Shown piece by piece: positions 50,272 to 53,986 of a stretch of DNA of 64,000 nt (position 1 is the first letter of the stretch; each line of letters starts with the position of its first letter). The stretch covers positions 992,001 through 1,056,000 of the forward strand of contig NZ_CP102630.1 in assembly GCF_024721605.1 (NCBI RefSeq). The letters are read 5' to 3'. Source of the stretch: Sphingomicrobium flavum (lineage in GTDB: Bacteria; Pseudomonadota; Alphaproteobacteria; Sphingomonadales; Sphingomonadaceae). A model generated the notes under the pieces. That model was not told the origin of the DNA and searched no databases. It worked only from the letters and a program-made list of their open reading frames with translations. Both the position numbers and the translations under genes were made by a program.

Positions 50272-51351
50272 TTAGCGCAAGCTCACCTTGCCCCCGGCAT
50301 GGCGATCGAGCCTGCCGGCGAGATCCAGCTCCAGCAAAGCCAGCTGCACCTGCGCAGGCGAAAGGCCCGATTGGCGCACCACTTCGTCCACTGCCACCGC
50401 GACTGGCCCCAGAAGCCGTTCCACCTCGTCGGTAGCCTGCCGGTCGGACATGATGGGCTCGGGCGATGGAGCGCGCTCTTCGGCGACGCGTGGCATGCGA
50501 TCATCCAGGCTGCCGACGGTCTCGAGCACTTCCTCGGCGCTCTGCACCAGCGTCGCGCCATCGCGGATCAGCTGGTTGCAGCCGCGTGCCCTGGGATCGA
50601 GCGGGCTGCCGGGGATCGCCATCACCTCGCGACCCGCTTCGGCGGCCAGCCGCGCAGTGATGAGCGAGCCCGAGCGCGGCGCCGCCTCCACCACCACCGT
50701 TCCTGCCGCCAGCCCGGCGATGATGCGGTTACGGTAGGGAAAATGGCGTGCGCGCGGCTCGGTGCCCGGCGGCATTTCGGCGACCAGCAGCCCGCGCTCG
50801 GCAATATCTGCCTGTCGCGCTTCATTTTCGGGCGGGTAGATGATGTCCAGCCCCCCCGCGATCACCGCGATCGTTCCCGTCGCCAGCGATCCGTCATGCG
50901 CCGCGCTGTCGATGCCGCGTGCCAGGCCGGAAACCACCGCCTGCCCGGCATGGCCAAGGTCATTGGCCAGCCCGCGTGCAAAGCGGCAGGCAGCGGCGCT
51001 GGCATTACGTGCGCCGACCATCGCGATGGCGGGCCGGTCGAGCAGCTTGAGGTCACCCTTCACGGTGATGAGCGGCGGCGCGTCGTCCAGCGCGGCCAGG
51101 AGACGCGGATAGAGCCCCTGCCCCAGCGCCAGATAATGGCCGCCCAGCCGCGCCACCCGCTCGGCCTCCGCCTCGGCGATGTGCGGCCCCGCCACGACAG
51201 GCGCACGCCCCCTTCCCCTTCGGGCAAGGTCGGGAATGGCCTCGATCGCTGCACCGGCGCTGCCGAAGCGGGCGATCAATTGGCGGGAGGTGACAGGCCC
51301 GATGCGCGGGGTGCGGATCAGGCGAATACGATCAATGAGGTCCGGGATCAC
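50272..51351 (-). CDS. dprA: DNA processing protein DprA
   Basis: 359 residues. An N-terminal helix-hairpin part (RTPRIGPVTSRQLIARFG), a Rossmann core with AMVGARNASA, GLARGIDSAAHDGSL and RNRIIAGLAAGTVVVEA, and a C-terminal winged helix (about 300-355). DprA loads RecA on incoming ssDNA. It begins within the end of plsY (20-bp overlap). Confidence 0.96.
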   Translation of the reverse strand: MIPDLIDRIRLIRTPRIGPVTSRQLIARFGSAGAAIEAIPDLARRGRGRAPVVAGPHIAEAEAERVARLGGHYLALGQGLYPRLLAALDDAPPLITVKGDLKLLDRPAIAMVGARNASAAACRFARGLANDLGHAGQAVVSGLARGIDSAAHDGSLATGTIAVIAGGLDIIYPPENEARQADIAERGLLVAEMPPGTEPRARHFPYRNRIIAGLAAGTVVVEAAPRSGSLITARLAAEAGREVMAIPGSPLDPRARGCNQLIRDGATLVQSAEEVLETVGSLDDRMPRVAEERAPSPEPIMSDRQATDEVERLLGPVAVAVDEVVRQSGLSPAQVQLALLELDLAGRLDRHAGGKVSLR

Positions 51352-51973
51352 TCAATTCACTCGGTTTGTCGGGACGCGAGAAGATATTCTCCTCCCCGGC
51401 GACGATCCGCCGGATATTGTCACGATGCTTCCAGACGATGAGAAGCGAGAAACCGAGCAACATGGGAAATAGGGGTTGGGCGCCGAAAAACCAGGCGGAA
51501 ATAGGCGCGCTGATGGCAGCGCCGAGGCCACCCAGCGCGCTGATCCGCGTGAAGGCGAACAGCACTCCCCAGACGATGGCGGCAATCAGCGCCGCCATGG
51601 GCAGGATGGCAATCAGGATGCCGAAGAAGGTGGCGACGCCCTTGCCGCCCCTGAACTTCAGCCAGACCGGGTAGAGATGGCCGATCAGCGCCCCGGTCGC
51701 GGCAAAAATCTCGTTGCCCAAAGGCATTGAGCCCGCGCCCAGAAATTCGCGCGCGATCAGCACGGCCGCCGCCCCCTTGGCAGCATCCAGCAGCAATACG
51801 ACAGCGCCCAACCCCTTGCCGCCGGCACGAACGGCATTGGTGGCCCCGATATTGCCCGATCCGATCTTGCGCAAATCGCCCTTGCCCAGCATCGCCGCCA
51901 GGATCAGCCCGAAGGGAATCGAGCCCAGCAGGTAGCCGATGCCAAAGGCCGGCAGATATTCAGCGATCGCCAT
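51332..51973 (-). CDS. plsY: glycerol-3-phosphate acyltransferase PlsY
   Basis: 213 residues, five or more helices. It uses acyl-phosphate to acylate G3P. Motifs: YLLGSIPFGLI, GSGNIGATNAVRAGGK, KFRGGKGVAT and WKHRDNIRR. The ATG at 51973 was chosen over the GTG at 51979, because the predicted transcription start falls at about 51973, giving a leaderless message. Confidence 0.95.
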   Translation of the reverse strand: MAIAEYLPAFGIGYLLGSIPFGLILAAMLGKGDLRKIGSGNIGATNAVRAGGKGLGAVVLLLDAAKGAAAVLIAREFLGAGSMPLGNEIFAATGALIGHLYPVWLKFRGGKGVATFFGILIAILPMAALIAAIVWGVLFAFTRISALGGLGAAISAPISAWFFGAQPLFPMLLGFSLLIVWKHRDNIRRIVAGEENIFSRPDKPSELSDPGPH

Positions 51974-51979
51974 GGCCAC

Positions 51980-52007: not shown

Positions 52008-52027
52008 GTTACGGTCCGACCGCACTG

Positions 52028-52055
52028 TTGCGAGCGCCGTCAATCGCGCTAGACC
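52028..52055 (+). promoter_or_regulatory. promoter of the HTH/EF-hand gene, leaderless spacing
   Basis: TTGCGA (52028-52033), a 16-nt spacer and TAGACC (52050-52055) preceded by GC, so the extended -10 reads GCTAGACC, very close to the GCTANAWC form known in Caulobacter. Six bases (AAGGCG) lie between -10 and ATG. Confidence 0.55.
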
Positions 52056-52061
52056 AAGGCG

Positions 52062-53153
52062 ATGAGTGATGCCTTGATCGACCGCCTGACCGACAATGAA
52101 CGCCAATGCCTTGAACGGGTGCTGGATCACCAGACCGCCAAGGAAATGGCGCGCGACCTCGGCATCTCGCATCATGCGGTGGAGAAGCGGCTGAAGCGAG
52201 CGCGCGAAAAGCTGGGCGCCGCGACCTCGCTGGAGGCCGCGCGCATTTATGGCGCACGGTACGGTCGGCCCGTATCCGGTCAGTCGGACCTCGCCGCTGC
52301 ACCAATTGAAACGATAGATGATCCGCAGAAAACGGGTGTTCCTGCCCGTTCCCGCAGGAGAAATATCATCATGATCCTCGCCACCTTGGTCGCTGGCGTT
52401 ACGGCCATCCTCGCAACCGGCGTCACTGCCGACCGGTCGGAAATCGACACTGTGAATGGCAAATCCGCAGCCGAACTGTCCGACCCGGTTCATGACCGCA
52501 ATCGCTATCGCATCGAAATAGGGCCGATCTCTGGCCTCGACCCTTATGACCTGGCGTTCGAGGTCATCGACAGCGATCGCTCCGACAGCATCAGCCAGCA
52601 GGAATTCCTCGACGGTGCACGCACGTTCGACAATCCCGGCTATTTGGCGAGCGGAGGCGATGAGAATAACAGCCTGGAGGCAATCTTCCACAGTCTCGAC
52701 ATTGATGGCAGCGGCCTGATCGAACGCGACGAATATCGGGATATCTCCTTCACCGACGACCAGAACGAGCTTTACGTCTTCGAGATCGTCTTTCCTGGTA
52801 AAACGGCTTCCGCACAGTCGGCGGGCAACGGGCGAGCAAATCCGCCTACCAAGAATGGCTACAGCTATGCCGTGGGCATCGTGCCGCGCGACGGCCTGAC
52901 CGCGCTCGAGACCGCGTTTCGCATGATCGACAAGGACCGCTCGGGGACCATTTCTGTGCAGGAATTTATTGTGCAGAATCCCGTCGTCGATTTGTCCACG
53001 AGCCAAAGCGCACCCGACAGCGATCCGATCTTTGCCTTCATGGATGGCAATAGCGATGGACTGATCGAGCCCAATGAGTGGAGCAACGTCAGCTTTGTCG
53101 ATGAAAAGGGTGATGAATATTCGTTCGAAATCTCGGACAGTTCCACTCGGTAA
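52062..53153 (+). CDS. LuxR-type HTH, single membrane span, four EF-hands
   Basis: 363 residues. A GerE/LuxR helix-turn-helix (about 8-66; LTDNERQCLERVL, KEMARDLGISHHAVEKRLKR) is followed by a basic stop (RSRRRN), one hydrophobic helix (102-120) and an extracytoplasmic part. That part has two tandem modules (about 148-242 and 266-357), each with an EF-hand pair and ending in a similar strand (LYVFEI, EYSFEI). The loops are D170-E181, D213-E224, D290-E301 and D328-E339; all keep Asp at 1, Asp/Asn at 3 and Glu at 12. It is probably a membrane-tethered one-component regulator sensing calcium outside the cytoplasm. Targets are unknown; plsY is divergent and murI follows. Confidence 0.85.
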   Translation: MSDALIDRLTDNERQCLERVLDHQTAKEMARDLGISHHAVEKRLKRAREKLGAATSLEAARIYGARYGRPVSGQSDLAAAPIETIDDPQKTGVPARSRRRNIIMILATLVAGVTAILATGVTADRSEIDTVNGKSAAELSDPVHDRNRYRIEIGPISGLDPYDLAFEVIDSDRSDSISQQEFLDGARTFDNPGYLASGGDENNSLEAIFHSLDIDGSGLIERDEYRDISFTDDQNELYVFEIVFPGKTASAQSAGNGRANPPTKNGYSYAVGIVPRDGLTALETAFRMIDKDRSGTISVQEFIVQNPVVDLSTSQSAPDSDPIFAFMDGNSDGLIEPNEWSNVSFVDEKGDEYSFEISDSSTR

Positions 53154-53197
53154 AGCTGCGCTTGCCCTCGGGGGGCGAGGCAGGCAAGAGAGCCGCC

Positions 53198-53986
53198 ATG
53201 TCCTCCGACGCCCCCATCCTCTTTTTCGATTCGGGCATTGGCGGGCTCTCGATCCTGGAGCCGACGCGCGCGCTCATCCCGACCGCGCCCATCGTCTATG
53301 CTGCCGATAATGCAGCTTTCCCCTATGGCACGCGCTCCGAAACCGAAATCGCCGCGCGCGTCCCGGCACTCCTCGGTCGCCTGACCGAAAGAGTGCGTCC
53401 GCGCCTAGTCGTCATTGCCTGCAATACCGCCAGCACTATCGCGCTCGATCATGTCCGCGCTGCCCTTGACGTGCCGGTGGTCGGCACCGTGCCCGCCATC
53501 AAGCCAGCAGCGGAGCAGACCAAGACCAAGATCATCGGCGTGCTCGGCACCCAAGCCACGGTACGCCAGCCATATGTCGACAATCTGTCGGCGCAATATG
53601 CCGCCGACTGCACCGTGCTGCGCCATGGCTCGGCGGCCCTGGTCGAGCTTGCCGAACAACGGCTCGCGGGTGAAGATGTGGACACGCAGGCCGTGGTCGG
53701 CGCCGCGCAGCCCCTGTTCGACCAACCGGGCGGGGACCGGATCGATACCGTGGTGCTGGCCTGCACCCACTTCCCGCTGCTCGCTGACTGGCTGCGCGCC
53801 GCGCATCCGGGCGTCGCCTTCATCGACGGAGGCCAGGGCATCGCCCGGCGCATCGCTTATCTCACCAACGGCCAGCAATGGCCCTCCACCGCGCCCGAAG
53901 GTACCGCCATCTTCACCGCCACGCCGCCGCCCGCGCTGGCCAAAGCGCTCGCGCCTTATGGATTGACCCGGATCACGTCGCTCTGA
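53198..53986 (+). CDS. murI: glutamate racemase
   Basis: 262 residues from MSSDAPILFFDSGIGG. Supplies D-glutamate for peptidoglycan. Catalytic cysteines in VIACNTAST and LACTHFPLL; YAADNAAFPYGTRS is the substrate loop. A TTG at 53162 would add 12 residues without a family match. It lies 44 nt after the EF-hand regulator gene, on the same strand. Confidence 0.96.
   Translation: MSSDAPILFFDSGIGGLSILEPTRALIPTAPIVYAADNAAFPYGTRSETEIAARVPALLGRLTERVRPRLVVIACNTASTIALDHVRAALDVPVVGTVPAIKPAAEQTKTKIIGVLGTQATVRQPYVDNLSAQYAADCTVLRHGSAALVELAEQRLAGEDVDTQAVVGAAQPLFDQPGGDRIDTVVLACTHFPLLADWLRAAHPGVAFIDGGQGIARRIAYLTNGQQWPSTAPEGTAIFTATPPPALAKALAPYGLTRITSL

Follow-up and report, generated by a model that had tools for sequence, protein, structure and literature searches.

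Introduction

The periplasmic protein EfhP of Pseudomonas aeruginosa contains two EF-hands, binds Ca2+ (13.7 uM) and affects transcription through a signal path that is unknown (PMC9132961, PMC11559002). In Caulobacter, the periplasmic EF-hand protein CaBP is tied to SigV via a postulated, unknown membrane component (PMC13171946). The membrane step by which periplasmic calcium information passes to bacterial genes is missing for both EfhP and CaBP (PMC11559002, PMC13171946). Where EF-hands and a DNA-binding domain occur in one chain, this question can be tested directly with a single gene, its promoter and a set of point mutants. The open-licence literature, searched for EF-hand with LuxR and Sphingomonas and for EF-hand with sigma factor, yielded no description of such a fusion, and the survey of transmembrane transcription regulators (TTRs) names neither LuxR nor EF-hand in its main text. 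The locus described here encodes a protein of this composition. The reading favoured below, with reasonable rather than strong confidence, is that of a one-component transmembrane transcription regulator that controls its own gene, senses a ligand (probably Ca2+) through periplasmic EF-hands and has an operator inside its own open reading frame (ORF).

Results

Domain organisation and topology of the regulator

The window (the whole 64-kb stretch of DNA analysed, whose features lie on the forward, +, strand unless stated otherwise) contains at positions 52062..53153 an open frame of 363 residues. Its parts follow one another in the order helix-turn-helix (HTH) domain, linker, transmembrane (TM) helix and two modules, each with a pair of EF-hands. 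The initial annotation had read from this frame a LuxR/GerE-type HTH, a basic cluster RSRRRN, one TM helix and duplicated EF-hand modules; all of these were recovered, and both GerE and EF-hand were found when the frame was searched against Pfam. One shade has to be added for the DNA-binding half. The HTH domain spans residues 8-62 (52083..52247), a Pfam-based assignment for which model confidence is about 97, and it is as much sigma-region-4-like as LuxR-like, with Sigma70_r4_2 (E=1.6e-8, 34.5 bits, cut-off 25.7; residues 4-62) scoring slightly above GerE (E=5.5e-7, 29.6 bits, cut-off 23.5). As the GerE match exceeds the Pfam cut-off, the HTH belongs to the LuxR/FixJ (GerE) superfamily. The domain search located no autoinducer-binding or receiver domain, so the regulator is neither a quorum-sensing LuxR nor a FixJ protein, and Pfam returned no Trans_reg_C, the OmpR/PhoB-type winged HTH of strictly ToxR-like regulators. 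The structural model of the HTH resembles LuxR-family DNA-binding domains and the full-length model also resembles EF-hand proteins (Foldseek), in both cases with weak E-values; outside the HTH, TM and EF cores the full-length model is poor (pLDDT 66). An NCBIfam match to XopAW, scoring far under its cut-off, was rejected as reflecting only the EF-hands in common.

The basic cluster RSRRRN occupies residues 96-101 (52347..52364) and is placed by the sequence and by the family charge count at the cytoplasmic end of the TM helix. The latter extends over residues 102-120 (52365..52421), with a hydropathy of 2.32 and a helix at residues 95-118 in the model. A hydropathy scan of the whole protein revealed no second TM-like window, and exactly one TM-like stretch is present in 24/24 relatives. 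Lys and Arg residues in the 20 residues flanking the TM helix total 81 before it and 31 after it (24 proteins). Because positive-inside charges are maintained across the family, the predicted topology is N-in/C-out, with a cytoplasmic HTH and periplasmic EF-hands, which agrees with the orientation proposed by the initial annotation under the same rule. The combination of a DNA-binding domain with at least one TM helix in one chain is the architecture of TTRs.

EF-hand loops and modules

Pfam EF-hand_1 matches the regulator in four stretches (E=2.3e-18). A canonical EF loop has 12 residues, occurs in pairs and displays D1, D/N/S3, D/S/N5, G6 and E12. The loops recognised in the sequence are DSDRSDSISQQE (loop 1, residues 170-181; 52569..52604), which has an Asp at loop position 6, DIDGSGLIERDE (loop 2, residues 213-224; 52698..52733), DKDRSGTISVQE (loop 3, residues 290-301; 52929..52964) and DGNSDGLIEPNE (loop 4, residues 328-339; 53043..53078). 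All four contain D1, D/N3 and E12, as had been claimed for them at the outset. Loops of the EF-hand superfamily type thus number four in this protein and 99 in the 45 proteins of the family described below, and shuffled family C-terminal regions contain 0.03 chance loops per protein. Ligand residues are conserved family-wide at D1 (97/99), E12 (97/99) and G6 (90/99).

Module 1 (residues 146-246; 52497..52799), defined by alignment, and module 2 (residues 261-363; 52842..53150), consisting of a strand, two EF-hands and a C-terminal hairpin, align end to end with 35/89 identical residues. The alignment score of 142 far exceeds that of shuffles (29.5 +/- 5.4, maximum 50, n=500), and the homology of the two modules over their entire length, noted previously, is upheld. 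When modelled in isolation, module 2 gave pLDDT 79 and pTM 0.69, and the solved folds nearest to this model are EF-hand pairs, with weak E-values.

Ca2+ is probably the ligand of the predicted periplasmic EF-hand sensor, being the likeliest candidate, and the EF-hands would accordingly allow the regulator to sense calcium. They could alternatively be structural, that is, permanently loaded with Ca2+ and stabilising a fold whose signal is something else, such as envelope stress, a partner protein or a polysaccharide. A periplasm with millimolar calcium might keep the EF-hands always loaded, and the EfhP authors state that calcium in the periplasm tracks or surpasses that outside the cell (PMC9132961). 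A structural role would also suit the variation in loop number from 2 to 4 among close relatives and the existence of siblings in which the same HTH-TM half is joined to unrelated periplasmic domains. It is nevertheless considered somewhat unlikely, as the ligand positions persist in nearly all 99 loops despite divergence of the remaining domain, and as EfhP and CaBP, both periplasmic proteins with EF-hands, take part in Ca2+-dependent regulation (PMC11559002, PMC13171946). If a calcium-sensing regulator of this kind had an affinity resembling that of EfhP, it would signal a lack of calcium, not a surplus.

Distribution of the HTH-TM-EF family

An order-wide profile search (398 genomes), followed by genus searches and gene extraction, assembled a set of 45 HTH-TM-EF proteins, which come from at least 8 genera, all of one taxonomic family. 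The order of the parts is the same throughout, and the number of loops per protein is two in 40, three in one and four in four. A class-wide search of 385 genomes found no HTH-TM-EF protein outside this family, which is taken to be Sphingomonadaceae since the closest contig matches of the HTH are Sphingomonas. Scanning genome contigs with the full protein returned no more than three HTH-TM siblings, all from Sphingomonas and devoid of EF-hands. The joined architecture is conserved in many relatives. A lack of homologues with both halves joined had been named as a sign of a local fusion artefact; with 45 such relatives at hand, a recent local fusion or an assembly artefact is ruled out.

Module 1 shares 64% identity with the C-terminal module of the G041 relative and only 39% with module 2 of its own chain. 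By sequence comparison, gain and replacement of modules have taken place within the genus, whereas the HTH-TM half remained stable. The same HTH-TM half occurs in siblings with other periplasmic domains attached. In L031-L033, L108, L109 and L111 the attached part is a duplicated domain of ~110 residues (GTEAALRRLVAGLASGSPDY...) that Pfam does not recognise, which is a further unnamed periplasmic sensor on the same HTH-TM chassis. The window's genome also contains a paralogue (L030; genome 1260933-1261361, - strand) with an HTH, a TM-like stretch and DUF4019, lacking the palindrome described below.

Genomic neighbourhood

The regulator gene is flanked by the divergent plsY (51332..51979, - strand; Pfam PF02660, E=1.6e-51), a possible co-regulated gene, and by the downstream murI, which runs in the same direction (53162..53986; Pfam PF01177, E=1.9e-25), may be co-transcribed and more likely starts at an in-frame ATG at 53198. 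Both neighbours had been named correctly in the initial annotation, which also proposed that the regulator controls envelope synthesis through them. Most EF members (36/45) do lie between divergent plsY and murI, and the candidate operator described below sits between plsY and the regulator gene. However, the remaining 9/45 are found at other loci, next to genes such as trmFO/gyrA, rmuC or purD (names read from translations), and in 44/56 genomes of the window's genus plsY directly adjoins murI with no regulator, an HTH-TM-EF gene being present between them in 8/56. The case for plsY and murI as targets is positional and weak, and control of envelope synthesis through this pair is judged unlikely.

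Another short ORF separates plsY from murI in 4/56 genomes of the genus. In these (L047, L052, L055 and L059) the gap measures about 500 bp and the ORF, of about 130-165 residues, is a different one; the plsY-murI gap has thus taken up genes more than once. In two related genomes (G262 and G289) the plsY-murI gene, recorded as L106 and L107 from position 1474 and again as L171 and L170, carries an in-frame TAG within the HTH; the frame is otherwise undamaged, and the promoter element is retained. This gene is probably a decaying copy.

A conserved promoter element

A conserved element of 22 bp, TTACGGTCCGACCGCACTGTTG (52009..52030), was delineated by alignment and motif scores upstream of the regulator gene and represents a candidate operator. 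It contains the palindrome TACGGTC-C-GACCGCA (52010-52024), the window's form of a site that is perfect in the relatives G041 and G002 (TACGGTCCGACCGTA). A -35-like box CTGTTG (52025..52030; consensus CTTTGN in relatives, 39 non-redundant promoters) and a -10-like box CTAGAC (52049..52054; consensus CTA... in relatives) follow, the latter just before the ATG. The layout of the 39 aligned promoters comprises the element, the CTTTG box, a spacer of ~17 bp, the CTA box, a further ~10 bp and the start codon, and the regulator's promoter is probably leaderless. The element lies upstream of the predicted promoter boxes and is therefore probably not transcribed. The centre of the palindrome falls at about -43, which would be an activator-type position; many activators bind near -43, the classic location for this function.

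Leave-one-out scores of the promoter element reach at least 12.6 bits in 19/24 training genes, and held-out EF genes located between plsY and murI score at least 12.4 bits in 16/16. Among 48 plsY-murI regions that lack the regulator no score exceeds 8.7, and shuffled stretches of 160 bp reach 9.6 at their 99th percentile. The element is also present in two non-EF siblings located elsewhere (L111, 28.6 bits; L191, 25.6 bits), so its presence goes with the HTH and not with plsY. The promoter site is absent from the other-locus EF genes L182, L183, L185, L186, L188, L099, L105 and L112, and also from L006; most EF genes without it keep the intragenic site. Non-EF siblings L193, L195, L197, L198, L200, L202 and L203 display a variant upstream element, GTACCAGACAGCGGGAGTTGGT and similar, whose distance to the HTH is constant and which may represent another type of operator.

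An intragenic palindrome in the linker

A matching palindrome, TACGGTCGGCCCGTA (52260..52274), covers codons Y67-V71 in the post-HTH linker and is a candidate second operator. The Val codon at this site is the rare GTA in 44/44 cases (57 non-redundant relatives), and the Val column is the most codon-biased of all those compared (155 bits versus a column median of 17), followed by the neighbouring codons that extend the palindrome. Held-out EF genes use GTA in 16/16 cases against a background of 7%. When codons were redrawn with the amino acids fixed, 17/24 genes exceeded expectation (p<0.05) and a control region downstream did so in 0/24. Covariation links dyad positions 4/12 (permutation p 2e-4) and 5/11 (permutation p 8e-4), and in some relatives the site expands to 21-23 bp of perfect palindrome, GGGTACCAG-N3-CTGGTACCC. 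Thus, a regulatory DNA site appears to fix both codons and amino acids over deep divergence.

Within the 64-kb window the palindrome rule fits just the promoter and intragenic places, and the 2.34-Mb genome contains two copies within one mismatch, these same two, both belonging to this gene. In the genomes of several relatives the own-gene copy is likewise the sole or best one, confining the palindrome to one locus or nearly so. A wider regulon, sought with exact-pattern searches, was discarded, as sites outside the gene occur at chance level relative to a reversed-pattern control. The locus thus displays the two-operator pattern, with a palindrome shared between the promoter and the regulator's own gene and conserved at the DNA level, to which binding is predicted. 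Together the two palindromes suggest autoregulation, which the initial annotation had missed.

An mRNA hairpin acting in pausing, cleavage or translation control could also account for the intragenic palindrome, and in several relatives the fold is indeed stable (-16 to -19 kcal/mol). In the window's gene, however, it is unremarkable (z -1.1), the dyad mismatches are mostly not G-U, and the same element also precedes the predicted promoter boxes, a position that would leave it untranscribed. A hairpin is thus a distinctly unlikely explanation, and the DNA operator is retained as the preferred one.

Whether the regulator's own HTH would be the protein bound at these sites was considered separately. 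HTH residue 37 shows an apparent match to operator base 12 (Fisher p 3e-9), an association that involves about two changes on the tree; it is not independent of descent, and co-evolution of HTH and operator was dropped as a proof of binding. The link between HTH and sites is for this reason circumstantial, and leaves room for another regulator that binds the palindromes while the HTH-TM-EF protein controls different genes through weaker sites. That arrangement appears improbable, since the element accompanies HTH-TM genes and is absent from plsY-murI regions without them, the best genome-wide copies lie in the regulator gene itself, and non-EF siblings at other loci have the element too. Recognition by the HTH is accordingly preferred, and the palindrome offers a concrete candidate binding site for a whole group of membrane-tethered regulators.

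Discussion

Proposed mechanism

The predicted features can be assembled into a one-protein calcium switch in which a signal would pass from the EF-hands through the TM helix to the LuxR-like HTH. Uptake of a divalent ion, most probably Ca2+, by the periplasmic EF-hands would change their shape or pairing, which would alter the dimerisation or the position of the HTH. An HTH dimer would then bind palindromes of the type TAC(S)(R)-N5-(Y)(S)GTA. At the promoter copy, immediately upstream of the -35 box, binding is predicted to activate, and the intragenic copy, about 250 bp downstream, may serve as a roadblock or as a loop anchor. As the palindromes occur in the regulator's own promoter and own coding sequence, its main target would be its own gene, and any effects on plsY or murI would follow from their position. 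Binding of the HTH to both palindromes and the sign of control are predictions drawn here from sequence comparison. The complete switch, including own-gene control through promoter and embedded operators and a family-wide dictation of the linker's rare codons and some of its amino acids by DNA-binding needs, is advanced tentatively, at slightly less than an even chance.

Comparison with known systems

The regulator resembles ToxR/CadC-type TTRs in its N-terminal DNA-binding domain, predicted to be cytoplasmic, its one TM helix and its predicted periplasmic sensor, all within a single protein (PMC10269533, PMC6320335). In contrast to their OmpR-type winged helix, it displays a LuxR/sigma-region-4-like HTH, coupled to an EF-hand sensor. 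By its predicted architecture it belongs with the TTRs in the broad sense (PMC10269533) and, because a winged HTH is absent, is not strictly ToxR-like. The sibling HTH-TM regulators of the same bacteria, of the DUF4019 type and of the duplicated ~110-residue type, have a related HTH, linker and single TM helix, and some of them have the palindromes too, but their periplasmic part is not an EF-hand.

EfhP, as a periplasmic EF-hand protein with an effect on transcription, resembles the regulator in its predicted layout and role and differs from it in having no DNA-binding domain. Similarly, CaBP-SigV connects a periplasmic EF-hand protein to transcription in an alphaproteobacterium, although there sensor and transcription factor are separate, whereas here both reside in one polypeptide.

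The lac and gal systems provide the precedent for an internal operator inside a coding sequence that works with an upstream partner site. In lac and gal the internal operator lies in an enzyme gene, whereas the candidate operator described here lies in the regulator's own gene. Unlike its lac and gal counterparts, it occupies a fixed place in the protein and appears to shape the amino acids encoded there across the family.
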